Below are positions 37,097 to 63,401 of a stretch of 64,000 nt of DNA, in pieces. The position numbers and the translations under genes were made by a program. The notes under the pieces were generated by a model, which was given only the letters and a program-made list of their open reading frames with translations, made no database searches and had not been told where the DNA came from. Each line of letters opens with the position of its first letter. Position 1 is the stretch's first letter. The stretch lies in NCBI RefSeq assembly GCF_007995085.1, contig NZ_VOQS01000005.1, forward strand, positions 1,054,001 through 1,118,000, read 5' to 3'. Source of the DNA: Paraburkholderia azotifigens (GTDB lineage: Bacteria > Pseudomonadota > Gammaproteobacteria > Burkholderiales > Burkholderiaceae).

Positions 37097-37362
37097 TCCA
37101 TGGTTCGGAAAATAACTGGCGGCCCGTATCTTATCCGATCATCACGTGCAAGGTTCCCGTCACGGGACGGCACGCCGTTGGCGAAGCGCGCACTGCAAAT
37201 GCGAAGAGCAAAAACGCTCGTCTGCAGTATTGTCAGATCGAAGTTAAAATCGTCTGCTTGAATTCCGTCCGTGTTAACGAGTGCGCCTGACAGTTGCCGC
37301 GCACCGGCCGCATTGCCTTCATCGAGGGCAGATCACCGAGTCAGTAGCAAGGAACGACTTCC

Positions 37363-41040: not shown

Positions 41041-41357
41041 AGGCGGCCGGCCCAGATAGTGGGCGGCATCGTTTTATCGAATGCCGCTTCGCCGCGCAAA
41101 ACAATTAAAAAAAATTTCGCGTTCCAGCGCAAGAGCACTGCCCCGCGCATCGTGTACCTCGTCGCAAACCCTTGCCCCGCAAGCATTTTTCGCATGCCGC
41201 ACATCCGCTTCGCGCGATTGGGAAACGGATGGAATAGTCCCTTGCTATCAGGTGTTCTGTATTCAGGAGCGCTACAAAAGAGATGGCGCCCACGACCAGA
41301 ACGACGGGGGATATCGGCGCGCATCGGCCGCGCCGTGATGATGGTTATGGAGTACAC
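41041..41357. promoter_or_regulatory. 317-bp intergenic region before the HrpG-like regulator
   Basis: A hairpin (GCGGCAT at 41063-41069, ATGCCGC at 41081-41087) just after the peroxidase stop may help termination, though no T-tract follows. An A-rich run (AATTAAAAAAAATTT near 41104-41118) stands out in the GC-rich context and may be part of the regulator promoter. No TTCG-N16-TTCG box was found here. Confidence 0.4.
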
Positions 41358-43328: not shown

Positions 43329-43390
43329 ACGATACGGGCCGCGCGGTCGATGCATCCCGTCGCGCACGAAGCCAGATGCGCAAACGCGAA
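43329..43390 (-). promoter_or_regulatory. PIP/hrpII box promoter of the harpin-lysozyme gene
   Basis: On the minus strand, TTCG (43390-43387), 16 nt, then TTCG (43370-43367), followed after exactly 32 nt by TATCGT (43334-43329), which fits the YANNRT -10-like consensus known from Xanthomonas HrpX targets. The gene start is 58 bp further on. Confidence 0.88.
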
Positions 43391-43412
43391 AGCGCCGCGC
43401 GCCGCCAGCCGC

Positions 43413-43475
43413 TTCGCATGCCCGTAGCGCTGCTTCGCGTTGCACGCGCGTCGACTGGAGGACGGCATCTATCCT
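43413..43475 (+). promoter_or_regulatory. Imperfect PIP-like box upstream of the exported repeat protein
   Basis: TTCGC at 43413-43417 and TTCGC at 43434-43438 are separated by one base more than canonical (TTCG-N17-TTCG). TATCCT lies 32 nt downstream (43470-43475). It may be a weaker site or chance. Confidence 0.4.
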
Positions 43476-43512
43476 CGTACGCATCGCTTCCCGTTCGACA
43501 AGGAGCACATTC

Positions 43513-43842
43513 ATGCGCCTCTCTCGACGCGCTCTCATTGCGTTATCGATCATGCTTGGCGCTATCGACGCTCGCGCGCAAAGCCACATCCGCGAAAGCC
43601 TGCTGCGCGTGAACGCCTACGACGACACCATCGAAGCACGCCGCCTCGACGAGGCACGCGCGGCGCAACGACGCCTCGACGAACATCGCGAAGAGACGCA
43701 TCGCGAAGAGGCGCATCGTGAAGAAGAGCATCGCGACGAAGCCCATCGTGAAGAAACTCGCCGCGAAGCACGCATCCACGCCTACAACGCATGGCTGCAA
43801 CGCTGGCACGAAACGCGCACGATCGAAGCAACGACGCCATGA
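43513..43842 (+). CDS. Small exported protein with charged pentapeptide repeats
   Basis: This 109-residue product of ATG 43513 (AAGGAGCACATTC in front) has a signal peptide (LSRRALIALSIMLGAIDARA, cleavage near 22). The middle is almost entirely a run of HREEx pentapeptides predicted to be helical or coiled, and the C-terminus (YNAWLQRWHETR) is aromatic. It overlaps the lytic transglycosylase gene by 4 bp (ATGA). It is probably periplasmic and linked to type III assembly by operon context. I know no named family. Confidence 0.65.
   Translation: MRLSRRALIALSIMLGAIDARAQSHIRESLLRVNAYDDTIEARRLDEARAAQRRLDEHREETHREEAHREEEHRDEAHREETRREARIHAYNAWLQRWHETRTIEATTP
43684..43773 (+). repeat. Six 15-bp repeats encoding HREEx pentapeptides
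   Basis: Consecutive 15-bp units beginning CATCGCGAAGAG (the last one CGCCGCGAAGCA) encode HREET, HREEA, HREEE, HRDEA, HREET and RREAR. Third-position differences between units show the repeat is not a very recent expansion. Confidence 0.85.
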
Positions 43843-44336
43843 ACACGCGCCTCGATCGCTCGTTGCTCGTCGCACGCTCGCTGCTGTTCGCATCGGCCTC
43901 GCTCGCAAGCGTGTCGGCACACGCCGACTGCTTCGACGACGCAGCCGCGTGGCAACATCTGAATCCGCTCGTTCTGCGCGCGATCGCCTGGCAGGAATCG
44001 CACAACAACGCCGACGCGACACATGCGAACGCGAACGGCTCGATCGATTACGGCGTGATGCAGATCAACTCGATCCATCTGCCCGAACTCGCGCGCTACG
44101 GCATCCGCCGCGATGCGCTGATGGTGCCGTGCAAGAACGTCTATATCGCCGCATGGCATCTGCGCAAGCAGGTGGTCCGCTACGGCAACACGTGGACGGC
44201 CGTGGGCGCCTATCATTCGTCGACGCCCGCGCTGCGCGACGACTACGCGCGCCGCATCGCCGCGATCATCGACGGCTGGCGGCGCGATCCTGCGCACAGC
44301 ATCCCGGTGACAGCGGCATCGCTGGCGGCGCGTTGA
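43839..44336 (+). CDS. Type III-associated lytic transglycosylase (SLT family)
   Basis: This 165-residue protein has a signal peptide (LFASASLASVSAHA, cleavage near 29) and an SLT domain: catalytic Glu53 in AIAWQESHNN, GSIDYGVMQINSIH, then NVYIAAWHLRKQV and VGAYHSS. It is like IpgF/HpaH-type enzymes that open the peptidoglycan for the type III apparatus. The start overlaps the stop of the repeat protein gene, so the two are coupled. Confidence 0.9.
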   Translation: MNTRLDRSLLVARSLLFASASLASVSAHADCFDDAAAWQHLNPLVLRAIAWQESHNNADATHANANGSIDYGVMQINSIHLPELARYGIRRDALMVPCKNVYIAAWHLRKQVVRYGNTWTAVGAYHSSTPALRDDYARRIAAIIDGWRRDPAHSIPVTAASLAAR

Positions 44337-44370
44337 GCCACCCCTGCGACGCAGCGAAACCGCATACACA

Positions 44371-44418
44371 TCGCACAACGACATCGCACAACGACATCGC
44401 ACAACGACATCGCACAAC
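44371..44418 (+). repeat. 13-bp tandem repeat, about 3.7 copies
   Basis: The unit TCGCACAACGACA is repeated at 44371, 44384 and 44397, with a partial fourth copy to 44418. It lies in the 125-bp gap between convergent genes for the transglycosylase and the second harpin. No function is evident. Confidence 0.85.
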
Positions 44419-44461
44419 ACGGCGCGCGGTGAATGCCGAGCGCCGCATCGCCTTGCATCGA

Positions 44462-45160
44462 TCAGACGTCGTTCTTCTGATTCAGGTCGCCCGACGACAC
44501 CGATACCTGCGACGAATCGAATACCTGATTGCCGCCGTCGGCCGTTTCCGGTTTCGTGAAGCCGCCCTTGCCGAACATCTGCGCGAAGTTCATTTTGCCG
44601 TCCGCGTGTCCCGTTTCGAGGATCGCCGCTTCCTTCGTCGCGCCCGAGTTCAGCGTGACCGACCCGTCGGCGCCCATATGGCCGACGTTGTTGCCGCTCG
44701 CGTTGTACAGATTGCCCTGCGAGTCTTCCTGCAGATGCAGCGCGTCGCCGCCCGCCTTGCTGTTGATCTTGATGTTGTGCATGCCCTGGCCCGCGGCGCC
44801 GAGACCGGTGTCGCCCGTCGTTGCGCCGACGGGCGAGCCGGCAGGTGAACCGGCGGGAGCGCCTGTCGACGGCATTCCGCCCGGCTGGCCGCCCGGCGAC
44901 GTCGCCGCGTTCTGCGCACCCTGCGCACCCTGCGCACCTTGCTGTCCGCCCAGCACGCCCGCCAGATCCTTCAGGAACTGGCTGACGTTGTTCGATCCGC
45001 CTGCGTTGTTCTGCTGACCGTCGATCAGTTGCGACAGGTCTTGCAGCAGCTTGCCGACGTCGCCGCCCTGACCCGGCACGCCTTGCGTCGAGCTGCCCGT
45101 CATGCCGCCGGCGGGCGTGTAGCTCACGGGATTGAGAAAGGATTGGGTAATGGAGTTCAT
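44462..45160 (-). CDS. Harpin-like type III secreted protein
   Basis: This 232-residue protein from ATG 45160 is acidic, Gly/Gln/Asn/Ser-rich and nearly Cys-free, with no Sec signal, as expected of harpins. The N-terminal module (LLQDLSQLIDGQQ, VSQFLKDLAGVLGG) matches that of the harpin-lysozyme protein. A GAQGAQGAQ run and a Gly-rich linker follow. The C-terminal half (MHNIKINSKAGGDALHLQED, ATKEAAILETGHADG) may be a beta-rich carbohydrate- or pectate-lyase-like part. A perfect PIP box precedes it. Harpins are extracellular helpers that form pores or assist translocation. Confidence 0.78.
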   Translation of the reverse strand: MNSITQSFLNPVSYTPAGGMTGSSTQGVPGQGGDVGKLLQDLSQLIDGQQNNAGGSNNVSQFLKDLAGVLGGQQGAQGAQGAQNAATSPGGQPGGMPSTGAPAGSPAGSPVGATTGDTGLGAAGQGMHNIKINSKAGGDALHLQEDSQGNLYNASGNNVGHMGADGSVTLNSGATKEAAILETGHADGKMNFAQMFGKGGFTKPETADGGNQVFDSSQVSVSSGDLNQKNDV

Positions 45161-45225
45161 CGAATTCTCTCTGGTTAACAAAGAAGACGAACCGGCGATC
45201 TTTGCCCGATCCCGATTCACTGTCG

Positions 45226-45287
45226 ACGATAGAGGGATGCGGACATGCGACGGCTGCATGGCGCGAAGCCGCGTGACGTGTCGCGAA
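45226..45287 (-). promoter_or_regulatory. PIP/hrpII box promoter of the second harpin gene
   Basis: On the minus strand, TTCG (45287-45284), 16 nt, TTCG (45267-45264), then 32 nt, then TATCGT (45231-45226). The arrangement and even the -10 hexamer are the same as at the other harpin gene. The start codon is 65 bp downstream. Confidence 0.88.
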
Positions 45288-45350
45288 TGACCGCGCGCAA
45301 CGCATCGAAACACCATGTGTCCGCGCCTCCGATACAGCACGACGACACGC

Positions 45351-45412
45351 TTCGGCACGCGGCACGACGCTTCGCGCAACGGCGATGCCGACCGCACTGC
45401 AGTACGCAAAAT
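45351..45412 (+). promoter_or_regulatory. PIP/hrpII box promoter of the HrpB1-paralogue operon
   Basis: TTCG (45351-45354), 16 nt, TTCG (45371-45374), then 32 nt, then CAAAAT (45407-45412), which fits YANNRT. The first gene starts at 45467, giving a leader of about 45-50 nt. Confidence 0.85.
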
Positions 45413-45466
45413 GCAGTGTCGGGCATGAGCCCGCTATCGTCCGTCAACTGTTCATGCGAGGCCGTC

Positions 45467-45925
45467 ATGTCGAATCTTCAATGCAGTCCATCCGTGCTCA
45501 ACGCGATGATGTCCGTGTTCTCAGGCGGCATGCGCATCGGCGCCACGCCGGAACTGCATGACGTGCTCGGCGCGCTGCGCGCGTGGCAGCCGGACAGTCC
45601 GCTCGCCGACGTGTGCGAAGCCCGTCTGCTGATCAATCAGACCGAGTGGCGCGAAGCGGCCAGCCTGTTGCGCCACGTGACGAGCCGTCATGCGAATCTG
45701 CCCGTCGTATCGGCGCTGTACGCGCTGTGTCTCTACATGCAGCACGACGACGAATGGCGGCGCGCCGCAACGGAGGCCGTCGATACGAACAACGACACGG
45801 CCATCGCCATCGTCTCGCGCTTCCTGAACGTGCCTGCCGACGATGGCGCGAGCGTCCACGATTCCGATCTGTCGACGCGCGTGCTGGCCGCGATCGAAAC
45901 GAGCCGCGCGCTCGAACACAGCTGA
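45467..45925 (+). CDS. HrpB1/HrpK-family type III secretion protein (paralogue 1)
   Basis: This 152-residue protein of ATG 45467 resembles HrpB1: LHDVLGALRAWQPDSPLADV, EWREAASLLRHV, ALYALCLYMQHDDEWRRAA. It has TPR-like helix pairs and no signal peptide. It aligns with the second HrpB1-family protein at 56884-57477 through the ALRA..P, W..A...LR.V and YA.CL....D..WR pattern. HrpB1 in Xanthomonas is a periplasm-associated assembly factor. This copy heads a separate PIP-box operon with a lipoprotein and a flavoprotein. Confidence 0.85.
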   Translation: MSNLQCSPSVLNAMMSVFSGGMRIGATPELHDVLGALRAWQPDSPLADVCEARLLINQTEWREAASLLRHVTSRHANLPVVSALYALCLYMQHDDEWRRAATEAVDTNNDTAIAIVSRFLNVPADDGASVHDSDLSTRVLAAIETSRALEHS

Positions 45926-45930
45926 TCGCG

Positions 45931-46563
45931 ATGAGCGCCGTTCCGTTGACACGCGCAGCCGCGACTGTCGTTGCGATAGCACTGACGTTGGCGGGCACAG
46001 GCTGCGCGAGTGCGCCGCAAGCCGCGCCTGAAGCGCAGTTGCCGCCGACGTTCGAACCCGCGCGAGGCGAAGTGCCGGGCAGCACGCTGCACGCACAGGG
46101 CGACATGCACTATGTGTGTGCCCGTACGGAAGCGGGCGCGCAGTCCGCAGACTTTGCCGCGTACATGTGGAAACCTGTCGGCACGCTTGCGCGGCTTCTC
46201 GATGATAAGGGCCATGCCGTCGCGCTCGTCACGCCGGAAGGCTATTACTCGGCGTATGACGGCAGCTACGTCGTCGCACGCTTGACGGACACCGTTCAGC
46301 CCGATCCGCAGACGTTGCCGTGGACGCGCGAAGCGATCCGCTTCACGGCGGCGGCGTCGAATGGCGATGGACGATTTGCGGGAACGACGGCGATCGTGCG
46401 CGCGCATACGATCGGCGGCCTGGCGCCTGCGGGCGCATGCGACCAGGAAGGCACGAGCCTCGCCGTGCCGTATTTCGCCACTTATCTGATCTATCGGCAT
46501 GCCGATGCGGATACCAGCGCCGCGGCGCCTCGCATGACGCCCGTCGGCATCACGGCGCCCTGA
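45931..46563 (+). CDS. DUF3455-family lipoprotein
   Basis: This 210-residue protein starts 5 bp after the HrpB1-like stop. It has a lipoprotein signal (IALTLAGTGCAS; lipid-modified Cys near 25). The mature part contains the DUF3455 pattern: QGDMHYVCARTEAG, GYYSAYDGSYVVARL, IRAHTIGGLAPAGACD-like wording (read as AHTIGGLAPAGACD) and VPYFATYLIYRH at the end. The family has no assigned function I can name. Its place between an HrpB1-like gene and the NDH-2-like gene, under one PIP promoter, is unusual. Confidence 0.8.
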   Translation: MSAVPLTRAAATVVAIALTLAGTGCASAPQAAPEAQLPPTFEPARGEVPGSTLHAQGDMHYVCARTEAGAQSADFAAYMWKPVGTLARLLDDKGHAVALVTPEGYYSAYDGSYVVARLTDTVQPDPQTLPWTREAIRFTAAASNGDGRFAGTTAIVRAHTIGGLAPAGACDQEGTSLAVPYFATYLIYRHADADTSAAAPRMTPVGITAP

Positions 46564-46652
46564 CTCTCACGCAGAAACAAAAGAAAAACCAGCGGCATCC
46601 GCCCCGCCGAACTACACTCGAATCCGCATCCTCACCACGGAGCACGCCCGAC

Positions 46653-47897
46653 ATGGATACTGACGTGAAGCGGATCGTCGTGATCGGCGCCGGTTTTGCC
46701 GGCCTGTGGAGCGCGCTGGGCGCCGCGCGCAAGCTCGATGAACTGCGCGTGCCGGGCGACCAGGTCGAAGTTGCCGTGATCAACGGCACGCCGTATCACA
46801 GCATTCGCGTGCGCAACTACGAGCAGCCGCTCGACGACACGCTCGTGCCGCTCGACGACGTGCTCGATCCTGCCGGCGTGCGCCGTATTCTCGGCAAGGT
46901 CAACTCGATCGATCTGCAAAACAGGCGCGTCGGTTTCGAATCCGGCGATGCGCCCGGGCAATCGCTCGGCTACGACCGCCTGATTCTCGCAGCGGGAAGC
47001 GAACTGGTTCGCCCCGCCATCCCCGGATTGCGCGAATTCAGCTTCGATGTCGACACGTTTCAGGGGGCCGCGCGTCTCCAGGCGCATCTGCTCGAACTGC
47101 CGGGCAGGCCTGAATCGCCAGGACGCTTCACGGTGGTCGTGGTCGGCGCGGGGCTGACAGGAATCGAACTTGCCGCGGAATTGCCAGCGCGCTTGCGCAG
47201 CATCATCGGTGAAAGTCACGGCAACGCGATACGCGTGATACTCGCCGACCGCTCGCCGAAAATCGGTCAGGCGATGGGCGGCGCACAGCCGGTGATCGAA
47301 GAAGCGCTCGTCGCGCAAGGCGTGGAACTGCTGCCGCGCGTGTCGCTCGAAGCCGTCACGCGCGACGGCGTGCAATTCACGGGCGGCGAGCACATCGATA
47401 CCGCAACCGTCGTCTGGTGCGGCGGCATGCGTGCAAACCCGTTGACGGCGCAATTCCCCGTCACGCCCGATCCATTCGGGCGCGTTCCCGTCGATGCCTT
47501 CCTGCGCGTCGACAACGTGCCGAACGTGTTTGCAGCGGGCGATTGCGCGCGCATCCTGATCGACGGCGAACGGCCCTCCGTGATGTCCTGCCAGCACGGC
47601 CGCCCGATGGGCCGCTACGCGGGGCACAACGCAGTATGTGACCTGCTCGGTCTCGACATGCTGCCGCTCGCCATCGACTGGTACACGACCATCCTCGATC
47701 TCGGCCCGTGGGGCGCCGTCTATACGGAAGGCTGGGAGCGGCGCCTCGCGTCGCAAGGCGCCGCCGCCAAACAGACCAAACGCACGATCAACTGCGAGCG
47801 CATCTATCCGCCGCGCAACGGCAAGCGCGAAGACATCTTCGCCGCCGCGGCACCCGTCGTACAGGCGCCGCCTTACACGGTCCGCGAAAAGAACTGA
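46653..47897 (+). CDS. NDH-2-like FAD-dependent pyridine nucleotide oxidoreductase
   Basis: This 414-residue flavoprotein has an FAD dinucleotide motif at the N-terminus (IVVIGAGFAGLWSALGAA), a second NAD(P)H-binding Rossmann motif near 165 (VVVVGAGLTGIELAAEL) and the FAD-binding VFAAGDCARI near 292. It lacks a clear membrane anchor, but a C-terminal amphipathic region is present, as in type II NADH dehydrogenases and related quinone reductases. It is 89 bp after the DUF3455 gene and convergent with sctC (12-bp gap). Its role within a type III locus is not known. Confidence 0.85.
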   Translation: MDTDVKRIVVIGAGFAGLWSALGAARKLDELRVPGDQVEVAVINGTPYHSIRVRNYEQPLDDTLVPLDDVLDPAGVRRILGKVNSIDLQNRRVGFESGDAPGQSLGYDRLILAAGSELVRPAIPGLREFSFDVDTFQGAARLQAHLLELPGRPESPGRFTVVVVGAGLTGIELAAELPARLRSIIGESHGNAIRVILADRSPKIGQAMGGAQPVIEEALVAQGVELLPRVSLEAVTRDGVQFTGGEHIDTATVVWCGGMRANPLTAQFPVTPDPFGRVPVDAFLRVDNVPNVFAAGDCARILIDGERPSVMSCQHGRPMGRYAGHNAVCDLLGLDMLPLAIDWYTTILDLGPWGAVYTEGWERRLASQGAAAKQTKRTINCERIYPPRNGKREDIFAAAAPVVQAPPYTVREKN

Positions 47898-47909
47898 AGC
47901 TCACCGCGT

Positions 47910-49718
47910 TCAGAACTCGATTACACGCGGCGTGAGCAGCACCAGCCGCTCCATATGGCTGCTCTGATGCGTGCGCGAGCGGAACAGCGCGCCGAGCACG
48001 GGAATCTTCGACAGCACGGGCACGCCCGTATTCAGATTCGAGTCGTTATCCACGCGATAACCGGCGATGAGCAGACTCTGGCCTTCCGATACGACGGCCT
48101 CGGTGTTGATCTCGCTGGTGCGGATCTCGGGAATGTCCTTCACGCTGTTGCCCGTCGGTTGACCGTCTTCCACGTGCACCTGCAGCTTGATCTGCTGCGT
48201 GCCGTTTGCGTCGACCACCATGGGGAGCACGCGCAGCGTATTGCCGACCTGCACGCTGAACAGATTGCTCGACGTGAAGCCCGATACGGGAATGAAGAAC
48301 TGCGTCTTGTTGTTCATCACGGCTTCGACGTTGTCGAGCGTCGCGACCTTCGGGCTCGCGTCGATCCGCGCGAGGTTGGTCTGCTCCAGCGCGTCGATGC
48401 GCGTCAGCAGATAGCGGCCCGCGTCGCCGACCACGGCTGTCAGCGAGCCGCCCGTCGGCGTCGCCGTCGCGACCAGATTGCCCGCCGTATCGAGCGACGA
48501 AAACGTCGGGCTCACCGTGCCGTTGAAGTTGTTTGCGTTGGCGCTGCCGCTGCCCGTCTGGAAGTCGAAGTGGCTCGAATGCGCGTGCCAGTCGACCCCC
48601 AGCTGCTTGAGCGCGCCGTCGTCGATTTCGATGATGTGCGCTTCGATCTCGACCATCCGACGCTTCACGTCCAGCCGGTCGATCAGCTGCTCATACTGGC
48701 CGACGCGATCGGGCAGATCGCGGATCAGTACCGAATTGGTCCGCGCGTCGGCCTGAATGACGGGCAGCGAGCCTGCGCCGTCCGGCACGGCCGCCGTCGC
48801 CGCGCGGCCACCGCCCTGGCCGCTGCCCGCTGCGCCGCCTGACGTGCCGCCCGCCGTGCCGCCATAGCCGCCGCCCGGCAGTGCGCCGACCGGCCCGCCG
48901 CCCGCCGCCGCGACGCCCGCGAACACATCGGGCAGCGGCGGATTCACGCCGTTGCTGTTGTACGGCGAGCCGCCGCTCGTGCCGCCCTGCACGTCCGCGT
49001 AAGGGCTGACCTGTTGCAGATTCGCCGTGCCGTCCGCCGTACCGCGCGACGTGCCCTGCTGGTCGCTGTCCCGCTCCGGGTGATAGAGACTCGCCAGTAC
49101 GTGCGCGACGCCCGGCACGACCTGCGTCTTGCCGTTCACGGTGATCGTGTGATCGGCGGCCCAGCCGTAGCGCAGCGGATACGCGCGCACTTCGCTGCCC
49201 GTGCGGCGATTCGCGTTCTGATCGAGCCGCGCGGCTACCTCATCGACCAGCTGGATCAACCGGTGCGGTCCCGTGATCAGCGCGACACCCTGCTCGGGGT
49301 CGTAGACGATCGGGAAGCGGTCCGTGTCGAGCCCGATCTGCTTGAGCGTCGCGCGCAGGCTCTGCGTGCCCGCGAAGTCGAGCTTGATGACCTTGGTGGT
49401 CACGTCGTCGGCGGTGCTGATGGAAAGCACGCTGCCGTCGTAGAACCAGACGAAGCCGAAGGTCGCCGCCATCGTGTCGATGAACCGGCGCGGCGGCAGA
49501 TCGAAGCGCCCCGACACGGTGCCCTGCACGTTCGGCGCGATCGTCGCGATGATGCCCTGGCTCGCCGCGAAGTCGCGCAGCACGTCCTTCAGATCGCGGC
49601 TTTCCACCGAAATATGCACTTCGCCGGGCCGCCACGAGATCGGCGCGGCCTGGCCCGTGCTCAGGCCCATCATCAGCAAGGCGGCCGCGATCGCGCGGCG
49701 ACGGAATGTGAGTTTCAT
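47910..49718 (-). CDS. sctC: Type III secretion outer membrane secretin SctC (HrcC)
   Basis: This 602-residue protein forms the outer membrane ring. It has a Sec signal (AAALLMMGLSTGQA, cleavage near 25), an N0 domain (VHISVESRDLKDVLRDFAAS), two N1/N3-type ring domains (IKLDFAGTQSLRATLKQIGL; GSLPVIQADARTNSVLIRDL), and a secretin core (LKQLGVDWHAHS, ASPKVATLDNVEAVMNNKTQ, EGQSLLIAGYRVDN) ending ERLVLLTPRVIEF. A Gly/Ser/Pro-rich insert runs from about 220 to 310. The gene is 52 bp downstream of the AraC activator, as in the Ralstonia hrpB-hrcC arrangement. Confidence 0.95.
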   Translation of the reverse strand: MKLTFRRRAIAAALLMMGLSTGQAAPISWRPGEVHISVESRDLKDVLRDFAASQGIIATIAPNVQGTVSGRFDLPPRRFIDTMAATFGFVWFYDGSVLSISTADDVTTKVIKLDFAGTQSLRATLKQIGLDTDRFPIVYDPEQGVALITGPHRLIQLVDEVAARLDQNANRRTGSEVRAYPLRYGWAADHTITVNGKTQVVPGVAHVLASLYHPERDSDQQGTSRGTADGTANLQQVSPYADVQGGTSGGSPYNSNGVNPPLPDVFAGVAAAGGGPVGALPGGGYGGTAGGTSGGAAGSGQGGGRAATAAVPDGAGSLPVIQADARTNSVLIRDLPDRVGQYEQLIDRLDVKRRMVEIEAHIIEIDDGALKQLGVDWHAHSSHFDFQTGSGSANANNFNGTVSPTFSSLDTAGNLVATATPTGGSLTAVVGDAGRYLLTRIDALEQTNLARIDASPKVATLDNVEAVMNNKTQFFIPVSGFTSSNLFSVQVGNTLRVLPMVVDANGTQQIKLQVHVEDGQPTGNSVKDIPEIRTSEINTEAVVSEGQSLLIAGYRVDNDSNLNTGVPVLSKIPVLGALFRSRTHQSSHMERLVLLTPRVIEF

Positions 49719-49770
49719 GTTCGACGCTCGGGATAGGTATGGTTCTGGCGTGACTGGCTGGCGGCGCGGG

Positions 49771-51228
49771 TCAGCGGTTCAGCGTGTCGGACGGCGATTC
49801 GTTGAATTCGCGGCGGTAGCTGTTGACGAGCGTCGAGCGGTTGCTGACGCCCCATTTGACGGCCGTCGCGAGAATGCCCTGCTCGTGCGCGCTGTCGTCG
49901 GCTTCGAGGTCCGCGCGGATGCGCTCCATGCGCAGCCGCCGGATGATTTCCGTCGGCGTCGAACCGAGGCTCGCCTTGAACGCGCTTTGCAGCGCGCGAT
50001 CCGTCACGCCGATCTGCGCGGCGATCTCGCGGATCGACAGATCCTTGCGTTCGAGGTTGTCGAGCAGATAGCGATACGCACGGCGGTAACGCGCGGGCAG
50101 CCGCGTGCCGATGTCGTCGAGCTGTTCCGGCGCGCGCGCGATGCGCTGGCCGTAGCGCGCGAGCGCGCCCGCTTCGTCGCGGATGCAGTTGACGGCGGCG
50201 AGCGCATAGCGCGTGTACACCTCCAGCGACTCGCCGCTGCGGCCCTGCACGTGACGCAGCTTCGCGAGGCAGTACAGATACTCCAGCTGACGATGGCTTT
50301 GCGGCATCCGCACTTCGGCCGTCAGCAGCGCGAGAATCGTCTCGGCCAGCGACGACACGCCGCCCGCGAGACTCGCGAGCACGATCTCGATGCGCACGGC
50401 GCTCTGATAGTTCTGGATGCCCTGCTTGCCCGCCCATTCGGCATGCGCGAGCATCGGCTGCTGCGCCTCGCGCTCGCCGCCCGCGAACTGCGCGAGCTGA
50501 TCGAGAAACTCGACACGTGCGCGCAGCAGCGGATCGGCGATCGCGCCTGTCAGCATGCGCAGCGCGGCGGGCCGCTGCGGCGCGACGCGCGGCGCGGCAT
50601 CGCCCGTCAGGCCCACTTGCCAGTAGATGTGATCGGACAGCGCGGCGCGCGAGCGCAGCGTGCTTTGCGCCTCGACATCGAAACGCACGGTGCTCAGCAG
50701 GCGCTGCCAGCCATCGGCATTGGGCAGCACACGATCGTTCGACGTCACCTCGTCGAGCAGGTCTTCGAGCGTATCGAGCACGGCATCCGCATCGCGCAGA
50801 CGGCCGACGCAGAAGAGCACGCCGAACGCACCGAACAGCGCGTCGAGCCGCAGCGCCGCGCTTGCCTGCGGATGATCGGCGATCTGCATGAAGCACGACA
50901 TCGCCGTGCCGTAACGGTAGCGGAACAGCGCCTGCCAGCCCGCGTTACGGCACGACGCGAAGCGCATGCCGTCCTTGTCGTCGCGCATGCGCTTTTGCGC
51001 GTCGCGGAACGATTCGTCGGCATCGACCTCCATGCCGAGCGACAGTTGCAGATCGCCCTGCAATTGCAGCAGCGCGGCGGGCGTCGCGTCGTCGTGATGA
51101 TCGACGAGGCGCTGTACGTGCGCGGCAGCCGCCTGCACATTGCCGTTGCGGATCAGTTCGACGACGCTGTAGGGCGCCGACGCCGCGTTGAGCATCGACA
51201 CATACGGGAAGTAGTAGGTAACGAGCAT
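49771..51228 (-). CDS. AraC-family master regulator of the type III regulon (HrpB/HrpX type)
   Basis: This 485-residue protein has a long TPR-like N-terminal half (ATPAALLQLQGDLQLSLGME, RNAGWQALFRYRYGTAMSCF) and a C-terminal AraC domain from about 385 (LLDNLERKDLSIREIAAQIG, RALQSAFKASLGSTPTEIIR, AVKWGVSNRSTLVNSYRREF). This layout is that of HrpB of Ralstonia and HrpX of Xanthomonas, which bind TTCG-N16-TTCG (PIP/hrpII) boxes. Five such boxes are in this locus. No PIP box precedes this gene itself, consistent with control by the OmpR-like regulator upstream in the pathway. Confidence 0.9.
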   Translation of the reverse strand: MLVTYYFPYVSMLNAASAPYSVVELIRNGNVQAAAAHVQRLVDHHDDATPAALLQLQGDLQLSLGMEVDADESFRDAQKRMRDDKDGMRFASCRNAGWQALFRYRYGTAMSCFMQIADHPQASAALRLDALFGAFGVLFCVGRLRDADAVLDTLEDLLDEVTSNDRVLPNADGWQRLLSTVRFDVEAQSTLRSRAALSDHIYWQVGLTGDAAPRVAPQRPAALRMLTGAIADPLLRARVEFLDQLAQFAGGEREAQQPMLAHAEWAGKQGIQNYQSAVRIEIVLASLAGGVSSLAETILALLTAEVRMPQSHRQLEYLYCLAKLRHVQGRSGESLEVYTRYALAAVNCIRDEAGALARYGQRIARAPEQLDDIGTRLPARYRRAYRYLLDNLERKDLSIREIAAQIGVTDRALQSAFKASLGSTPTEIIRRLRMERIRADLEADDSAHEQGILATAVKWGVSNRSTLVNSYRREFNESPSDTLNR

Positions 51229-51481
51229 GGCTGGTTCCGTCGTAAAGCTCGCGCAGCGATGGAGGCGACGCTGCCTGAGCGCGTTGAAACGATCGCGACG
51301 CTGTTCATCGATATTTCATCGATACGTCGCGGCGACGGAATGCACTGTAGCCAAACGGAAATGTGAAATTCTCAATAATCAGAGGAAAGAGTTGAGGCTT
51401 GAGCAAAGTTGAGATTTCGCGTTCTTCACGGACAAGAACGCTCAACAAATCTCACTTCTATGGCATGCGATTGCCGTGACA
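51229..51481. promoter_or_regulatory. Upstream region of the AraC activator gene
   Basis: These 253 bp lie between the sctT stop and the activator start. There is no TTCG-N16-TTCG pair. A hairpin (GCGTTCTT at 51419-51426, AAGAACGC at 51434-51441) without a T-run sits just past sctT. The middle is richer in A and T (near 51361-51400) and probably contains the activator promoter. Confidence 0.4.
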
Positions 51482-52339
51482 TCACGGCGTCACATCGCGG
51501 GAGGGAGGCTTGGCGCCTGGCTTCAGATCGGTGTCGCGATCGCTCATCTGCGCAATCGCGCGAACCTGCTCCCTGAAGAGCCGCAAGTCGAGCTGATCCT
51601 GCACCTGATGCACGAAAAGGCCCGTGAAGACGGCGAGCATCAGCACCGTCACTGCTCCCTTGATCGGCTGACTGAGCGCGCTCAGATCGAGTTTTTGCGC
51701 GGCCTTCGACGCGAGATTCGCACCGAGATCGATCAGCAGCAGCACGAGCAGCATTGGCGCGGCAAGTTTGGCGATGGTCTGCATCAACGTGTCGGTCTGG
51801 TGCATTGCGAACACGCCGAGAAAATCCGTCGACATGGGCTTTGTCGATGCAACCGGCCACCATCGATACGACTCGTACAGCGCCTCCAGCAAAAACTGCA
51901 TGCCGCCGAGCGACCAGAACGCAACGGTCGCGATCTGGCCGAGCAACGTCGCCGATGGTGTGGATTGCTGCGACAGCATCGGGTTGCTCATCTGCGCGTT
52001 GTTGTAGCCCGTCAGATTGTCGAGATAGATGCCCGCGCCTTCCGCCACCCAGAACACGGTCGCCGCCGCGAAACCCATCACGACGCCGATCAGCGTCTCG
52101 CGCAACGCGGTCATCATCAGCGTGAAGCCCGTCAGCGAATCGGCGAACGACGGCGGCTGCGCCAGCGCGACGAACAGCGTGAAGCTCAGCGCGACACCGT
52201 TGCGCAAGCGCCCTTGCAGCACGCCCTCCGCGGTCGGCGGAAAGAGCGTCATGATCGCGTAGAGCCGCAGCGAGCAGACGCCGAGCACGGCGAGATGCCT
52301 GAGCAGCCACGGGCCGTAGAGTTGCAGCAACTCGGTCAT
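51482..52339 (-). CDS. sctT: Type III export apparatus protein SctT (HrcT)
   Basis: This 285-residue inner membrane protein starts at ATG 52339 (MTELLQLYGPWLL), overlapping the sctO stop by ATGA. It has about six hydrophobic segments and the SctT/FliR wording LRETLIGVVMGFAAATVFWV, LDNLTGYNNAQMSNPM and APMLLVLLLIDLGANLASK. With SctR and SctS it forms the export gate. It is the last gene of the leftward operon. Confidence 0.93.
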   Translation of the reverse strand: MTELLQLYGPWLLRHLAVLGVCSLRLYAIMTLFPPTAEGVLQGRLRNGVALSFTLFVALAQPPSFADSLTGFTLMMTALRETLIGVVMGFAAATVFWVAEGAGIYLDNLTGYNNAQMSNPMLSQQSTPSATLLGQIATVAFWSLGGMQFLLEALYESYRWWPVASTKPMSTDFLGVFAMHQTDTLMQTIAKLAAPMLLVLLLIDLGANLASKAAQKLDLSALSQPIKGAVTVLMLAVFTGLFVHQVQDQLDLRLFREQVRAIAQMSDRDTDLKPGAKPPSRDVTP

Positions 52340-52833
52340 GCGCGGGCAAGGCGCGCGAGCGCCGTCTCTTCGATGTCTTCGTCTTCCGCGTCGGCGGCGA
52401 TGCCGTCGAGCACGCGTTGCAGCTTGCCGATGCGCGTTTCGCACAAACCGATGCGACCGCGATTCTTCGCGATCTCGCCGCGCGTGTTCGCAATCGTGCC
52501 GTCGTGGGCCGCGATGGCCTGTTGCGCGGCCGTCAACGCGTCCAGCGCGGCGGCGTGCATGCGGTCCACTTCATCCGCGTAGAGGCGGATCGCCGTCAAC
52601 GTGTCGATCGAAAACGGCTCCGCGCCCGACATCATCGCGCTGATGCGCCGCCCGTAGGAACGCGCCTGCCCCTCAAGCGCCGCTGCGTGAGCGCGCGCCT
52701 GCCCTTCGCGCTCGACGAGCGGCACACGCGCCGCGACGAGCTGCGCAAGCCGCGCGCGCAAGTCCTGTTCGAGGCGCTGGCGGCGCGACACGGCGCGCGA
52801 CAGCGCGGCTATCTGTCGTTGCGGTGCGCTCAT
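52336..52833 (-). CDS. sctO: Type III stalk protein SctO (HrpB7-like)
   Basis: This 165-residue protein is Arg/Ala/Glu-rich and almost entirely alpha-helical coiled coil (RQRLEQDLRARLAQLVAARV, DRMHAAALDALTAAQQAIAA), as expected of the YscO/FliJ-type stalk that contacts the ATPase ring. Sequence conservation in this family is low; the assignment rests on the position between sctN and sctT (HrpB7 in Xanthomonas) and the coiled-coil nature. Confidence 0.85.
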   Translation of the reverse strand: MSAPQRQIAALSRAVSRRQRLEQDLRARLAQLVAARVPLVEREGQARAHAAALEGQARSYGRRISAMMSGAEPFSIDTLTAIRLYADEVDRMHAAALDALTAAQQAIAAHDGTIANTRGEIAKNRGRIGLCETRIGKLQRVLDGIAADAEDEDIEETALARLARA

Positions 52834-52843
52834 CGCCGTGTGC

Positions 52844-54232
52844 TCATTGCGCGTCCCCTTGCGCGAGTTCGTGCAGCGCCGCTTCCGTGTCCGCCGGGTC
52901 CGCGTATGAATCAGTCGGCTGCGACAGGAACGCTTTCAGCGCGTCGATCTTCGCGATCGCTTCGTCGGCGAGCGCGTTCGTGCCCGGCTGGTATTCGCCG
53001 ATCTGCAACAGCATGTCCACCTCGCGATGCTTCGCAAGCAGCTTGCGCAGCCGCCCGGACGACGCCATGAACTCGCGCGGCATCACTTGCGACATCACGC
53101 GCGACAGGCTGCCGAGCACGTCGATGGCGGGGTAACGGTTCTGCGCGGCAATTTCACGCGACAGGATCAGATGGCCGTCAAGCACGCCGCGCACTTCTTC
53201 CGCGATGGGATCGCTGCCCGACTCGTCTTCGGCGAGCACCGTATAGAGCGCCGTGATCGAGCCGCGCTCGCCCATGCCCGCGCGTTCCAAGAGACGCGGC
53301 AACTCGGCGAACACGGACGGCGGAAAGCCACGCCTTGCGGGCGGCTCGCCTGCTGCAAGGCCGATCTCGCGGCCCGCGCGCGCGAAGCGCGTCAGCGAAT
53401 CCATCATCAGCAGCACGCGCTTGCCTTCGTCGCGGAAATGCTCGGCGATGGCCGTCGCCACGTACGCCGCCTTCGCGCGCTCGCTCGACGAACGGTCCGA
53501 TGTCGCGCACACGACCACCGAGCGCGCCATGCCCTTCTCGCCGAGAATCAGCTCGACGAATTCGCGTACTTCGCGGCCACGTTCGCCGATCAGCGCGATC
53601 ACGTTGATGTCGCATTGCGCGCCGCGCGCGAGCATGCCGAGCAAGGTGCTCTTGCCGACACCCGCCGGCGCGAAAATGCCCATGCGCTGGCCTTCCGCGA
53701 GCGTCGTCATCGCGTCGATCACGCGCACGCCCGTGACCATCGGATGCTCGATCATGCGGCGCGTCATCGGGTTCGGCGGGTCCGCGAAAATCGGCCTGCT
53801 GTCTTCGGCCTCGATCGGGCCGCGCCCGTCCATCGGCTGACCGAGGGCATCGATCACGCGGCCGAGCAGGCCGTCGCCGACAGGCACCGACAACGGCCGC
53901 TGCAAGCCGATCACATGCGTCGCGCGCGACACTTCCGACAACTGCGCGAACGGCGACACGACAGCATGCTCGCGCGTAAAGCCGATCACTTCGCCGTGCT
54001 GCAACAGCTTGCCTTGCGGCGTGCGCAGCTCGCACAGCTCGCCGAGCTTCAGGTCGATGCCCGCGACCTTGATCAGCGTGCCGACCACTTCGGCGATCTT
54101 GCCCGTCTGACGCACAGGCAACAGCGAGCGGATCTCGCGTTCGATCGCGCTGCCGAGTTCGCGCAAGCCGTGTTCGTGCAGACCGAACACGTCGGTCAAC
54201 GGCTTGTCCTGCAGTGGATTCACGGTGTTCAT
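52844..54232 (-). CDS. sctN: Type III secretion ATPase SctN (HrcN)
   Basis: This 462-residue cytosolic ATPase, related to F1-beta and FliI, starts at ATG 54232, overlapping the sctL stop by one base. Walker [10 protein letters not shown] is at 188-196, Walker B VLLMMD at 273-278, with [10 protein letters not shown] near 217 and the [15 protein letters not shown] segment. It unfolds and detaches substrates from chaperones. The length is typical of the family. Confidence 0.96.
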
Positions 54233-55005
54233 CAGCTTGTCTCCGCGGGCTCGGTCTGGTCGGCTTGCGCCTTTAACGACGTGTTCAATGCACGAACGAT
54301 GGCCGCGCGCATCGAATCGAGTTGCGTCGACAGGCTTGCATCGACAATGCCGAGGTCCGATTCGCATACGCAGGCGCCCGGCTCCAGGCGCGGGTCTGCC
54401 GCGACGGCGAGGGGCACGGGCCGTCCCAGCATGCGCAGCCGCGCCTCGAATTCGCCGAATGCTGCGCGCGCTGCGTCGAGATCGGCGGGATGCACGCTCA
54501 CGCGCAGGTTCGCCGATCCTTCGACAATGCGGTCGATCGTATCCGTCGCGCGCGCGAACAATGCCTGTGCGCTTTCGGCGCGCACCAGCTGCTCGACGGC
54601 GAGCATCACGAGTTCGGCCATCCGGTTGCGCATGCCCTTTTGCAGGCGCTGCGCATCGGCGCTCAACGCGGCAATGCGTTCGATCCATTGCGCCTCGCCG
54701 CGCGCGACGCCTTCCGCGTAACCCTGCTGCGAGGCTGCTTCACGTTCACGCGCAGCCGATGCGACGAGCGCTTGCGCTTCATCGCGAGCCGCGTGCAGGA
54801 TCTGCTCGCGCTCGATCTGCGCGGCGGCGAGGATCGCCTGGCGCTCGGCCTCGACGCGGCCATAGACGTCGTCGATGGTCGCGAGCATGCCGAAAGTCTC
54901 GCGCGGCACGATATCGCCGACGAGACCAACGCGCGGTTCGTCCTTGCCGTTTTTAGCGTCGCGCGTCGCGTGCGCGTCGCGCGGCCGGCTCAGCCAGATA
55001 ACCAT
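54232..55005 (-). CDS. sctL: Type III stator protein SctL (HrcL/HrpB5)
   Basis: This 257-residue protein links ATPase and C-ring. It starts at ATG 55005 ([10 protein letters not shown]). It has a helical N-terminal region ([40 protein letters not shown]) then the FliH/YscL-type C-terminal part ([40 protein letters not shown]). It overlaps sctK by 16 bp. Order and fold fit HrpB5 of Xanthomonas. Confidence 0.9.
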
Positions 55006-55679
55006 GGATACTCCGGCACAAGAGGTCCGAGACGTTCGCGCAGCAACGCGAATGCGTCTTCGCATTCGTCTTCCGAAGGCGATACGGTGCTTGCATCCGC
55101 AGATGGCAACGCGAAACGCAGCAACATGCGCTGCGCGCCCGCGCGCGGCAGCAACGCCAGCCCTTCGAGCGCGAGTTCGTCGGCATCGAGCGAGCCGAGC
55201 GCGCGCATGCCCGAACGCTCTCGCCTGGCGTCCACGAGCGACGGCGCCTCGGGCACGGCCTTGCTGAGCAGATCGTCGAGCGGGCAGCCGATCCATTCCG
55301 CGAGCCGCTTGCGCGTGGTGCGGTCGACGAGCCGCCGCACTTCCGCGCGGCGTGCGAGCAGCGCGAGCATTCGCAGTATCTGCAAGGCGGTTTCCACCGG
55401 AAGCGCGTCGAGACGCGCGGCGGGCGCGGCGCTGAAGAGATCGAGCGTCGGCGGTGCGGGCTGCAGCACGCGCAGTAGGGCAAGCGAGCACATGTCGTCG
55501 CAGCGTGCGCGTAATGTCGCTAATGCCGCTTCCATATGTGTCTGCGTGCGCAGCTTCGCATCGAGACCCAGCGCTGCCGCCAGCCAGTCGCGATGCAGCC
55601 ATTGCAGCGCGCTGCGCGCATTGCGTTGCCAGCCGAGCAGAATCTGCGCGGCATCGCCCGCCGCAAGCACCGCGCTCAT
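54990..55679 (-). CDS. sctK: Type III sorting platform protein SctK (HrpB4-like)
   Basis: This 229-residue cytosolic protein of the YscK/HrpB4 position starts at ATG 55679, overlapping sctJ by ATGA. It has an acidic helical C-terminus (SEDECEDAFALLRERLGPL) and a WLSG ending. Sequence is poorly conserved in this family; assignment is by gene order between sctJ and sctL and by size. Confidence 0.85.
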   Translation of the reverse strand: MSAVLAAGDAAQILLGWQRNARSALQWLHRDWLAAALGLDAKLRTQTHMEAALATLRARCDDMCSLALLRVLQPAPPTLDLFSAAPAARLDALPVETALQILRMLALLARRAEVRRLVDRTTRKRLAEWIGCPLDDLLSKAVPEAPSLVDARRERSGMRALGSLDADELALEGLALLPRAGAQRMLLRFALPSADASTVSPSEDECEDAFALLRERLGPLVPEYPWLSG

Positions 55680-56476
55680 GCGGACTTCTGCCTGCGTCCC
55701 GGCAGGCGCTGCGCAAGCGCACCGAAACTGGCCTTCAACGGCGCGATCAATCCGGCAAGCCGTGCACGAAACACATAACCCCCAGCGCCAGCCATCGCGA
55801 TCAACACGAACAGCCCGCCCAGCACGAACGGCCACAAGGGTGCATGCGACGGCGCGCGGCTGTCGAAATCGACCTGATCGGCGGCCACGCCCGTGACGCT
55901 GACCTGATCGTACGAAAGCCCTTCGACGCTATGCACGACGAGGTTCTTGATCTGCGGCACGAGCGCATCGAGTTCGAGACCGGGCCGGTATTTGATGAAC
56001 ACGGCAGCGGAAGACGGCTTGATGGTCTGCGCAAGCGGATCGTTGTTCGGAATCACGATCTGCACGCGCGCCACCAGCACGCCGTCGATATGCGACAGCG
56101 TGCCCGACAGTTCCTGCGACAGCCCGTAGATGAAGCGCACGCGCTCTTCCGTCGGCGTCGACACGAGACCGTCCTTCTTGAACAGGCTGCCGAGATCGTC
56201 GAACTTGCTATGCGGCAGGCCTCTTTCGCGCAGCACCTGCATCGCGCGCACCATGTCGCCGTCGTCGACCTGCAACGTGTAGGTCTTGCCGCCGTCGGGC
56301 GTGCTCTTTTCAGCCGGCACACCGCGTTCCAGCAGCGCGACAGTCATCTCGTTGACGTCCTCTTCGGCAAGCCCCGTGTACAGCTCTTTCTTGCAGCCCG
56401 CCAGCAGCGCGCACGCGACGAACAGACCGCCCATCAACATGCGCCGTGCGGGAGGAAGCAGGGTTCTCGTGTTCAT
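55676..56476 (-). CDS. sctJ: Type III inner ring lipoprotein SctJ (HrcJ)
   Basis: This 266-residue protein has a lipobox (CALLAGCKK, lipidated Cys28). The paired ring-building domains follow (ELYTGLAEEDVNEMTVALLE; IYGLSQELSGTLSHIDGVLV, IPNNDPLAQTIKPSSAAVFI), then a C-terminal transmembrane helix near 215-237 (LWPFVLGGLFVLIAMAGAG). ATG 56476 shares one base with the sctI stop. It forms the MS-ring-like basal body with SctD, which is not in this window. Confidence 0.95.
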   Translation of the reverse strand: MNTRTLLPPARRMLMGGLFVACALLAGCKKELYTGLAEEDVNEMTVALLERGVPAEKSTPDGGKTYTLQVDDGDMVRAMQVLRERGLPHSKFDDLGSLFKKDGLVSTPTEERVRFIYGLSQELSGTLSHIDGVLVARVQIVIPNNDPLAQTIKPSSAAVFIKYRPGLELDALVPQIKNLVVHSVEGLSYDQVSVTGVAADQVDFDSRAPSHAPLWPFVLGGLFVLIAMAGAGGYVFRARLAGLIAPLKASFGALAQRLPGRRQKSA

Positions 56477-56868
56477 CACTGGTTCTTCATCAGCGTTTCA
56501 GCCGACGACTTCGACGCCGACACCACGGCCATCTTGGTCTGGAAGTCGAACTGCGCGAGCGACAGATTCAACGACACCTGCGCGGCCGCCGCGATCTGTT
56601 GCGTCGGCGACAGCGACGCCGAATGCGCGCTCAGCGTCGCGACCTGTTCGAGCGCCGCTTCCATCTGGCCGTCCTGCTTGCGGATCGCGTCGACGAGATG
56701 ATTGCCCGCGTGCTGCCCGGCATCGCCGCCCGGCGCGACGAGCGGCTGCTGCATCAAGTCTTCGAAGCGGCTGACGGATTCGGGCGCGGGCATCTGCGGC
56801 AACTGTTCGGGCTTCGCGGCCTCGGCGGCCGCGTGTACAGCCGTTTCGGCAATGCTTGTGATCGACAT
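56476..56868 (-). CDS. sctI: Type III inner rod protein SctI (HrpB2)
   Basis: This 130-residue protein has a low-complexity N-terminus and a helical C-terminal half (ASLSPTQQIAAAAQVSLNL, FQTKMAVVSASKSSAETLM) ending in a helix-Met-Lys-Asn pattern typical of HrpB2/SctI. HrpB2 is an early secreted rod subunit needed for pilus formation. Order hrpB1-hrpB2-hrcJ is as in Xanthomonas and Ralstonia. Confidence 0.9.
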   Translation of the reverse strand: MSITSIAETAVHAAAEAAKPEQLPQMPAPESVSRFEDLMQQPLVAPGGDAGQHAGNHLVDAIRKQDGQMEAALEQVATLSAHSASLSPTQQIAAAAQVSLNLSLAQFDFQTKMAVVSASKSSAETLMKNQ

Positions 56869-56883
56869 GAGCGTCTCCTCGAA

Positions 56884-57477
56884 TCAGGCGCGCAAAAACG
56901 CATGCGATGCGAACGCGGGCGCATCGGCCGATGCGTGCCGCGCGTTATTCGACTCCGCGTTCTCCTGCTCTTGCGCGAGATCGCGGTACGACTCGGGCAG
57001 CACGAAGTCGCCGCCGCGATGATTCGCGCGCGCGGCTTCGAGATCGGCGCGCACGCCGAGCGCACGGACCAGCGCACGCGTTTCCGGGCCTGCCTCGCCT
57101 TCGAGCGCCTGGTCGGCCCATTGACGCCAGCCGGCGTCGTTCTGCGCTGCGAGACAGTACGCATACATCGCCTTCGCATACGCGAACGACGGCGCTGCGT
57201 CGATCACGTCGCGCAGCGTGCGCGACGCGTCTTCCCAGCGTCCGTTGACGATATGCAGCACACCCGCCAGCGTGTCGATCTCGGCGACCTTCGGACGGAA
57301 GGCGCGCAGCGCGTCGAGCACCAGTTCGATGTCGGTCGTATCGGAGGACGCTTTCGGGAAATGCCGGAAGAGACCCGCCGACGCGATCTCGATCAGCGCA
57401 TTCAAGGTGGCGTCGCCGCATTGCAGATAGTTCGGCGCGGACTGGGCGGAAGCAGGTTGTGACGGTTTCGCGAGCAT
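56884..57477 (-). CDS. hrpB1: HrpB1-family type III secretion protein (paralogue 2, first gene of the core leftward operon)
   Basis: This 197-residue protein from ATG 57477 has TPR-like wording (VLDALRAFRPKVAEIDTLAG, WEDASRTLRDVIDAA, AMYAYCLAAQNDAGWRQWA). It is longer than paralogue 1 at 45467, with an added C-terminal tail rich in charged residues. It is the operon-leading HrpB1 as in Xanthomonas. A perfect PIP box lies 88-111 bp upstream. Confidence 0.88.
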   Translation of the reverse strand: MLAKPSQPASAQSAPNYLQCGDATLNALIEIASAGLFRHFPKASSDTTDIELVLDALRAFRPKVAEIDTLAGVLHIVNGRWEDASRTLRDVIDAAPSFAYAKAMYAYCLAAQNDAGWRQWADQALEGEAGPETRALVRALGVRADLEAARANHRGGDFVLPESYRDLAQEQENAESNNARHASADAPAFASHAFLRA

Positions 57478-57526
57478 GGCGTGGACCCTCTTGATGAAAA
57501 CGGGACGCGGGGCGTCATCCGTCGGC

Positions 57527-57588
57527 AAGGTATCAGGCGGGTCGCGCGCAGCCCGCATCGCAGCCGAAGCGAGTCGCGCGAAAGCGAA
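57527..57588 (-). promoter_or_regulatory. PIP/hrpII box promoter of the hrpB1-sctT operon
   Basis: On the minus strand, TTCG (57588-57585), 16 nt, TTCG (57568-57565), then 32 nt, then TACCTT (57532-57527). The -10 hexamer keeps T-A....T but not the purine at position five. It drives the leftward core operon. Confidence 0.85.
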
Positions 57589-57634
57589 CCGCTGGGCGCG
57601 AGCGCAACGCGCTGGACGGCCGGCACCCATGCGC

Positions 57635-57696
57635 TTCGCAACCGTGCGCGGGGCTTCGCCTCGGTGGAAAGCCCGCCGCTGCACGCGCCCTACACT
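57635..57696 (+). promoter_or_regulatory. PIP/hrpII box promoter of the sctU operon
   Basis: TTCGC (57635-57639), 15 nt, TTCGC (57655-57659): a fully canonical PIP box, with TACACT at 57691-57696 after a 32-nt gap from the second TTCG. It is back-to-back with the hrpB1 promoter; the two boxes are 46 bp apart. Confidence 0.88.
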
Positions 57697-58811: not shown

Positions 58812-58863
58812 AGGCTCACGTCGCGCTCATCCACGCCACTCGCTACGCTCAACTACCACGCTC

Positions 58864-60948: not shown

Positions 60949-60956
60949 GGCCGCGC

Positions 60957-63372: not shown

Positions 63373-63401
63373 GCGTCGCGGCTCTTCACGATGGATTTGT
63401 C

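Follow-up and report, generated by a model that had tools for sequence, protein, structure and literature searches.

The closest described systems are the regulons of HrpX in Xanthomonas and of HrpB in Ralstonia and Burkholderia, in which an AraC-family activator serves a Hrp2-type cluster through TTCG-N16-TTCG boxes (PIP or hrpII boxes) and a -10 element 30-32 bp away. YANNRT is the stricter -10 form for HrpX/HrpB-type promoters, and an OmpR-type regulator stands upstream in these regulons. The locus analyzed here, a 64,000-nucleotide stretch of Paraburkholderia azotifigens DNA (the window), resembles them in box, -10 spacing, activator and cluster type, and carries an OmpR-type gene as well. 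According to the available part of one report, Burkholderia sensu lato genomes have been scanned earlier for the same motif (PMC8565462). The accessible portions of two further papers place a HrpX-regulated PIP box 123 bp ahead of the hrcQ start codon in Acidovorax citrulli (PMC6913199) and, for Xanthomonas citri, map the start of the hrpD operon (hrcQRS-hpaA), whose leader is 204 nt long (PMC3937308).

Judged by its gene content, the cluster in the window is a Hrp2-type type III secretion system; HrpB1, HrpB2, HrpB4, HrpB7, HpaP and the core hrc genes are all present, with Pfam or NCBIfam matches above cut-offs. The genes are:

41283..42077 (+): OmpR-type response-regulator-like gene, which we take to be HrpG-like from its position and the biology of such regulons (PF00486 Trans_reg_C, 70 bits)
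42317..43270 (-): harpin-like Gly-rich N-terminus followed by a phage-tail-lysozyme domain (PF18013, 93 bits)
43791..44336 (+), start uncertain (43791 or 43839): IagB-like lytic transglycosylase (PF01464, 65 bits)
44462..45160 (-): harpin-like Gly-rich protein, named from composition and position
45467..45925 (+): second hrpB1/hrpK-like gene (PF09613, 106 bits)
47910..49718 (-): hrcC, SctC secretin (TIGR02516, 485 bits)
49771..51228 (-): AraC-family regulator HrpB, between hrcT and hrcC (PF12833 HTH_18, 53 bits, residues 402-485)
51482..52348 (-), start approximate: hrcT, SctT (TIGR01401, 198 bits)
52336..56868 (-): hrpB7, hrcN, hrcL, hrpB4, hrcJ and hrpB2 (Pfam matches above cut-offs)
56884..57477 (-): hrpB1, the first gene past box 4 (PF09613, 158 bits)
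57723..60948 (+): hrcU and hrcV (PF01312, 336 bits; PF00771, 642 bits)
60957..61520 (+): hpaP, SctP, the frame that contains promoter 6 (TIGR02557, 89 bits, cut-off 65, on the frame 60396-61520)
61554..62738 (+): hrcQ, SctQ (TIGR02551, 137 bits)
62717..63665 (+): hrcR and hrcS (PF00813, 206 bits; PF01313, 71 bits)

Several of these names carry qualifications. The harpin-like gene at 44462..45160 gave zero matches at E<=0.001 in Pfam and NCBIfam searches, and the N-terminal part of the lysozyme-domain protein aligns with it at E 2e-14 (composition correction off). NF011856 scored 91 bits on the transglycosylase, under its cut-off of 208, and TIGR02561 scored 74 bits on the second hrpB1-like gene, under its cut-off of 123.85; that gene shares 31% identity with hrpB1. 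An HrpB-like AraC gene had been reported in the cluster by the first-pass annotation and was found there, its PF12833 match exceeding the cut-off, while an NCBIfam search of the same gene returned no model at its cut-off.

The same annotation had described five boxes, each with 16-nt spacing and a hexamer exactly 32 bp away, as the map of a type III regulon. A scan of the window bore out the coordinates, strand and spacing of all five, together with the 32-bp distance and the hexamer of each. As a map the set was incomplete, since a sixth full motif lies inside hpaP. The regulon reading itself gains support from the boxes standing 5' of hrp/hrc or harpin-like genes, with an AraC-family gene in the cluster. 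The candidate promoters are:

Promoter 1 (-): box 43367..43390, -10 TATCGT 43329..43334, 5' of the lysozyme-harpin gene 42317-43270
Promoter 2 (-): box 45264..45287, -10 TATCGT 45226..45231, 5' of the harpin-like gene 44462-45160
Promoter 3 (+): box 45351..45374, -10 CAAAAT 45407..45412, 5' of the second hrpB1-like gene
Promoter 4 (-): box 57565..57588, -10 TACCTT 57527..57532, 5' of hrpB1 and the genes after it
Promoter 5 (+): box 57635..57658, -10 TACACT 57691..57696, 5' of hrcU-hrcV-hpaP
Promoter 6 (+): box 61370..61393, -10 TACTCT 61426..61431, inside hpaP, 5' of hrcQ-hrcR-hrcS

When a YANNNT hexamer was sought 30-32 bp past the box, all six promoters had it at exactly 32 bp. Three of the six hexamers (TATCGT twice, CAAAAT) match the stricter YANNRT, and the other three fit YANNNT only. 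A seventh full-motif promoter lies just beyond the window edge, 5' of an HrpD5/SctD-like gene. Two further boxes near genes were considered and set aside as chance matches, both having no hexamer at 26-36 bp: one at 41189 (+), 5' of the HrpG-like gene, is missing in the closest relative (G077), and one at 37182 (-), 5' of a DUF2322 gene, is kept by that relative, also without a hexamer.

Conservation was followed in 30 related loci, with each promoter scored over the loci in which its target gene was detected. The hrpB1 promoter (box 4) is kept in 24/24 loci, the hrcU promoter (box 5) in 23/23, two of these at 31 bp, and the hrcQ promoter in hpaP (box 6) likewise in 23/23. The harpin-like promoter (box 2) is kept in all eight loci and the lysozyme-harpin promoter (box 1) at 32 bp in all four; the promoter of the second hrpB1-like gene (box 3, CAAAAT) is the least conserved of the six, being kept in five of ten. 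Six loci that have HrpB, but whose fetched sequence shows no type III genes, contained zero full motifs at 32 bp.

Promoter 6 shares its DNA with a protein-coding frame, its hexamer being encoded by the hpaP codons CTA CTC TTG, and the arrangement is widespread. An internal full motif is present in 142 of 146 hpaP genes from 15 genera and two families: 135/139 in the first set, with the entire motif within the frame in all 135, and 7/7 in the second family. Kinship among these genes is allowed for only roughly, by clustering at 60% identity, which leaves the motif in 31/35 clusters. The leucines under the half-sites are encoded by CTT in 126/126 and 127/127 cases (CTT elsewhere in the same frames, 7.5% of 1,831 leucines), and those under the -10 by CTA or TTA in 130/132 (elsewhere, 3.9% of 1,831 leucines). 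These codon counts come from 135 sequences chosen as motif carriers, and the unselected test is synonymous recoding of the same HpaP proteins, for which 0.04/139 would be expected to carry the motif versus 135 seen. Rare leucine codons of hpaP are held fixed at promoter 6. An HpaP-family search over 399 genomes of the order produced a single clear match (G856) plus four weak ones, and a class-wide search of 369 genomes gave no clear Xanthomonas hpaP and 14 weak matches besides the window's own genome.

Four hpaP genes lack the motif. In two of them the genome's only HrpB match (E<=1e-20) ends well short of the end of the DNA-binding domain, and in the same two genomes the Arg of the LS...LRF segment is changed to Val or Ala. 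The link between a shortened HrpB and a lost box rests on two cases, because the HrpB survey covered the 144 genus genomes and 16 chosen ones. Loss of the hpaP motif is not always tied to HrpB, since the G047 cluster (contig 64) encodes an HrpB of full length, with hrpB1 and hrcU also lacking a full motif upstream, and in G207 (contig 63) the box 5' of hrcU is retained, with TACCGT 32 bp away. In G426 HrpB is shortened, yet hrpB1 retains an upstream box, with TACCGT 31 bp away.

We consider it about 90% probable that the boxes are PIP/hrpII activator sites of the cluster's HrpB, giving seven promoters, six within the window and one outside it, with that of hrcQRS lying in the 3' portion of hpaP. 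Were they chance TTCG matches in a GC-rich genome, the box by itself would cause little surprise; it occurs 14 times in the window against an expected mean of 5.5 (dinucleotide shuffles) or 8.75 (third-order Markov model), and is thus only mildly enriched, and eight of these boxes lack a YANNNT hexamer 26-36 bp downstream. However, the full motif occurs six times where the Markov model averages 0.15 occurrences and never exceeds 2 over 100 simulations. Among 268 boxes in the related loci, moreover, YANNNT lies at 32 bp in 115 and at 31 bp in 22, with every other offset from 0 to 59 accounting for at most 17. With the motif also kept at orthologous promoters, including those of hrpB1, hrcU and hrcQ, the chance explanation is close to negligible.

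The sixth box might instead be a by-product of HpaP protein conservation and no promoter at all, as the stretch beneath it encodes a conserved Leu-Ser ... Leu-Arg-Phe segment that shows no variation across the nine rows of alignment A1. The recoding null speaks strongly against this, and of ten other leucine-dominant hpaP columns compared across 24 genes, nine vary among synonymous codons and one is CTC in all 24. The motif is absent from all 17 weak HpaP-family matches that were scored, which we take to be FliK-like, and we regard this explanation as very improbable. It is also unlikely, though somewhat easier to entertain, that the sites are genuine but recognized by another regulator, not by the product of the window's AraC gene. 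Several relatives have two to four HrpB homologues each, which would leave room for this; against it, the window's genome (G000) contains a single HrpB match at E<=1e-60, the one in this cluster, a count that covers matches at that threshold. Within the genus, HrpB was detected in 62/144 genomes (E<=1e-60), and HrpB4 in 59/144, all 59 falling within the 62.

Building on the observed positions, spacing, conservation and codon constraint, and on published HrpB/HrpX work, we infer that the cluster's HrpB controls these promoters. HrpB would contact both TTCG half-sites and bring RNA polymerase to the -10 element 32 bp downstream, with transcription starts and dependence of the operons on HrpB predicted to match, such that the six window promoters and the one 5' of the HrpD5/SctD-like gene would be turned on together. 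The same DNA in hpaP would then encode a conserved C-terminal part of HpaP and act as the hrcQRS promoter, and synonymous codons would be held there because of this double role. The hrcQRS promoter is probably a dual-use sequence conserved in two or more families within a single order. It would keep rare leucine codons in place and might constrain the protein too, at the Ser and Arg of LS...LRF.

These data provide a promoter map, with a tightly kept 32-bp spacing, of the type III secretion genes in a soil bacterium that has received little study. The hpaP promoter appears to be a clear-cut natural example of protein code and activator-dependent promoter on one DNA stretch, maintained over a deep split. 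Box searches confined to intergenic DNA would overlook it, and alterations of hpaP could upset hrcQRS expression, which bears on the reading of hpaP mutants.

By its sequence features, the promoter set is a PIP/hrpII-box regulon of known type, already reported for Burkholderia sensu lato; the available text describes this motif in Hrp-2 clusters like the present one, at two to eight boxes per cluster, and states for none of its boxes that it falls within hpaP, whereas here one does (PMC8565462). Unlike the HrpX/HrpB regulon, the spacing here is mostly exactly 32 bp, and three of the six -10 elements are YANNNT, not YANNRT. A partial search of the literature on hrcQ promoters found no placement inside hpaP. 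A separate hrcQ promoter appears to be common to X. citri, A. citrulli and the window, where motif and codon constraint point to it; the accessible portions of the two papers do not state its position relative to hpaP, whereas that of the window lies inside hpaP and holds its codons. What goes beyond the known regulon is a probable hrcQRS promoter within the hpaP reading frame that is widely kept.

The five TTCG-N16-TTCG boxes listed by the first-pass annotation are all real, and their positions, 16-nt spacing and YANNNT hexamer exactly 32 bp downstream are as it described. The list was nevertheless incomplete, missing a sixth full motif (box plus hexamer, here TACTCT) inside hpaP and upstream of hrcQ-hrcR-hrcS. 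The features concerned are:

43367-43390, minus strand: box 1
45264-45287, minus strand: box 2
45351-45374, plus strand: box 3
57565-57588, minus strand: box 4
57635-57658, plus strand: box 5
60957-61520, plus strand: hpaP
61370-61393, plus strand: box 6, a predicted promoter within hpaP
49771-51228, minus strand: HrpB, the AraC-family regulator that would act on these boxes

The box alone is common in this window of 64% GC, with 14 matches against a mean of 5.5 in shuffles or 8.75 under a third-order Markov model. The full motif occurs six times, whereas 100 Markov simulations averaged 0.15 and never exceeded 2. A seventh box with TAATCT at 32 bp lies in the right flank (64637 in window numbering, plus strand), about 100 bp upstream of a 408-aa frame that scored 250 bits for HrpD5 (cut-off 300) and 34 bits for SctD (cut-off 86) against NCBIfam, both below cut-off; a Pfam search of this frame returned no family. 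The original finding is correct, and of an already known kind.

The window (G000:C5:1054001-1118000, in a genome of 9.7 Mb and five contigs) carries, by family matches, hrcC, the AraC-family gene, hrcT, hrpB7, hrcN, hrcL, hrpB4, hrcJ, hrpB2 and hrpB1 on the minus strand; hrcU, hrcV, hpaP, hrcQ, hrcR and hrcS lie on the plus strand. The region to their left holds genes for an HrpG-like regulator of OmpR type, for a harpin-like protein that includes a phage-tail-lysozyme domain and for a lytic transglycosylase, followed by second harpin-like and hrpB1-like genes. The lysozyme gene (42317-43270) fuses a harpin-like N-terminus, similar to the adjoining harpin-like protein, with domain PF18013, and has its own box; the second HrpB1_HrpK-family gene (45467-45925) adjoins the harpin-like gene and is 31% identical to hrpB1. 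The closest named HrcT records are from Paraburkholderia sp. Tr-20389 (96%) and from Burkholderia sp. Ac-20365 and Paraburkholderia sp. C35 (92% each), in a set where the source genome itself may be absent.

We fetched the HrpB surroundings from 30 chosen genomes, about half of the HrpB-positive ones, with identities from 97 to 46%. The YANNNT hexamer follows 115 of the 268 boxes in these loci after 32 bp and 22 of them after 31 bp, while every other offset from 0 to 59 has at most 17. Full motifs at 32 bp number 113 across the 23 loci with hrcU; none occurs in the six HrpB loci whose fetched span shows no type III gene; the G127 locus, whose hpaP is some 40 kb distant, has two. Counting loci where tblastn detected the gene and allowing 31-33 bp, box and hexamer precede hrpB1 in 24/24, hrcU in 23/23, hrcQ (from within hpaP) in 23/23, the harpin-like gene in 8/8, the lysozyme-harpin gene in 4/4 and the second hrpB1-like gene in 5/10.

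Box 6 and its -10 element are read within the hpaP frame, the half-sites falling in CTT TCG and CTT CGC and the -10 in CTA CTC TTG. HpaP searches matched 86 of 398 family genomes and 59 of 144 genus genomes; the places shown by these two lists, together with the tblastn loci and one locus (L248) belonging to a second family within the order, gave 139 frames. The motif is present in 135, at exactly 32 bp in 133 and at 33 in two, always entirely within hpaP and in an identical codon frame, whereas 0.04 would be expected if these proteins were recoded with synonymous codons. Single-linkage clustering at 60% protein identity leaves it in 31 of 35 clusters, and seven of seven further hpaP genes from the second family bring the total to 142/146 in 15 genera. 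Two genus genomes of 4.1 Mb each (G014 and G043), a size that would presumably fit amoeba symbionts, keep it also. Class and order searches also gave 18 weak HpaP-family matches, taken as FliK-like; the motif was absent from all 17 that were scorable. The window and fetched loci together contain 24 hpaP genes, and every one keeps both half-site CTT codons and has CTA or TTA for the -10 leucine; among 7,875 leucine codons in six other type III genes, CTT makes up 4.3% and CTA plus TTA 1.3%.

The motif is missing from four hpaP genes (L177 in G426, L181 in G316, L201 in G047 and L208 in G207). In G426 and G316 the sole HrpB match (L262 and L260) breaks off at residue 436 or 442 of the 485-residue query, inside the matched DNA-binding region (402-485), and these two losses therefore point to HrpB's DNA-binding end. 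By the usual anatomy of AraC proteins, both end points precede the second helix-turn-helix. The arginine of LRF in HpaP is Val or Ala in both genomes and still Arg in G047 and G207. G316 has two boxes in the 20 kb read, neither with a hexamer at 29-34 bp; G426 has one upstream of hrpB1, followed by TACCGT after 31 bp, and two elsewhere with hexamers at 31 and 33. In G047 (contig 64) HrpB is full-length, one box elsewhere has its hexamer at 33, and neither hrpB1 nor hrcU has a full motif upstream; G207 (contig 63) keeps the hrcU box at 32. These other two losses therefore show that the hpaP motif can also vanish in another way.

HrpB homologues (E<=1e-60) occur in 62 of 144 genus genomes and HrpB4 in 59, all within those 62, leaving G013, G028 and G109 with HrpB but no HrpB4 match. 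HrpB and HrpG-like homologues lie close together in G109 (L054, L055) and G028 (L056, L057); type III genes are absent from the fetched spans and searches for HrpB4 and HpaP found no match in either genome: a regulator pair retained without its secretion system. In G028, G091, G047, G074 and G085 (L056-L065) an HrpB 68-69% identical to that of the window sits with an HrpG-like gene apart from any type III cluster, and the last four have another HrpB and an HrpB4 elsewhere.

A literature search on an hrcQ promoter within hpaP found no matching title or abstract, older work being thinly covered, and the available parts of PMC8565462, PMC11261895, PMC6913199 and PMC3937308 do not give this position or the codon constraint. 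As far as those parts go, PMC8565462 used this motif to scan genomes of Burkholderia sensu lato, reporting two to eight per cluster, greater numbers in genomes with Hrp-2 systems and no enrichment in three amoeba symbionts, and in PMC11261895 TTCG-N16-TTCG is cited as the element of HrpB in both R. solanacearum and B. pseudomallei. Likewise, PMC6913199 describes an HrpX-regulated PIP box 123 bp from the hrcQ start codon in Acidovorax citrulli and PMC3937308 maps an hrpD operon start of Xanthomonas citri, with a 204-nt leader; an hrcQ promoter is therefore already known. What is added here is the sixth promoter, and evidence that it is a part of hpaP with a dual use across many and diverse bacteria.
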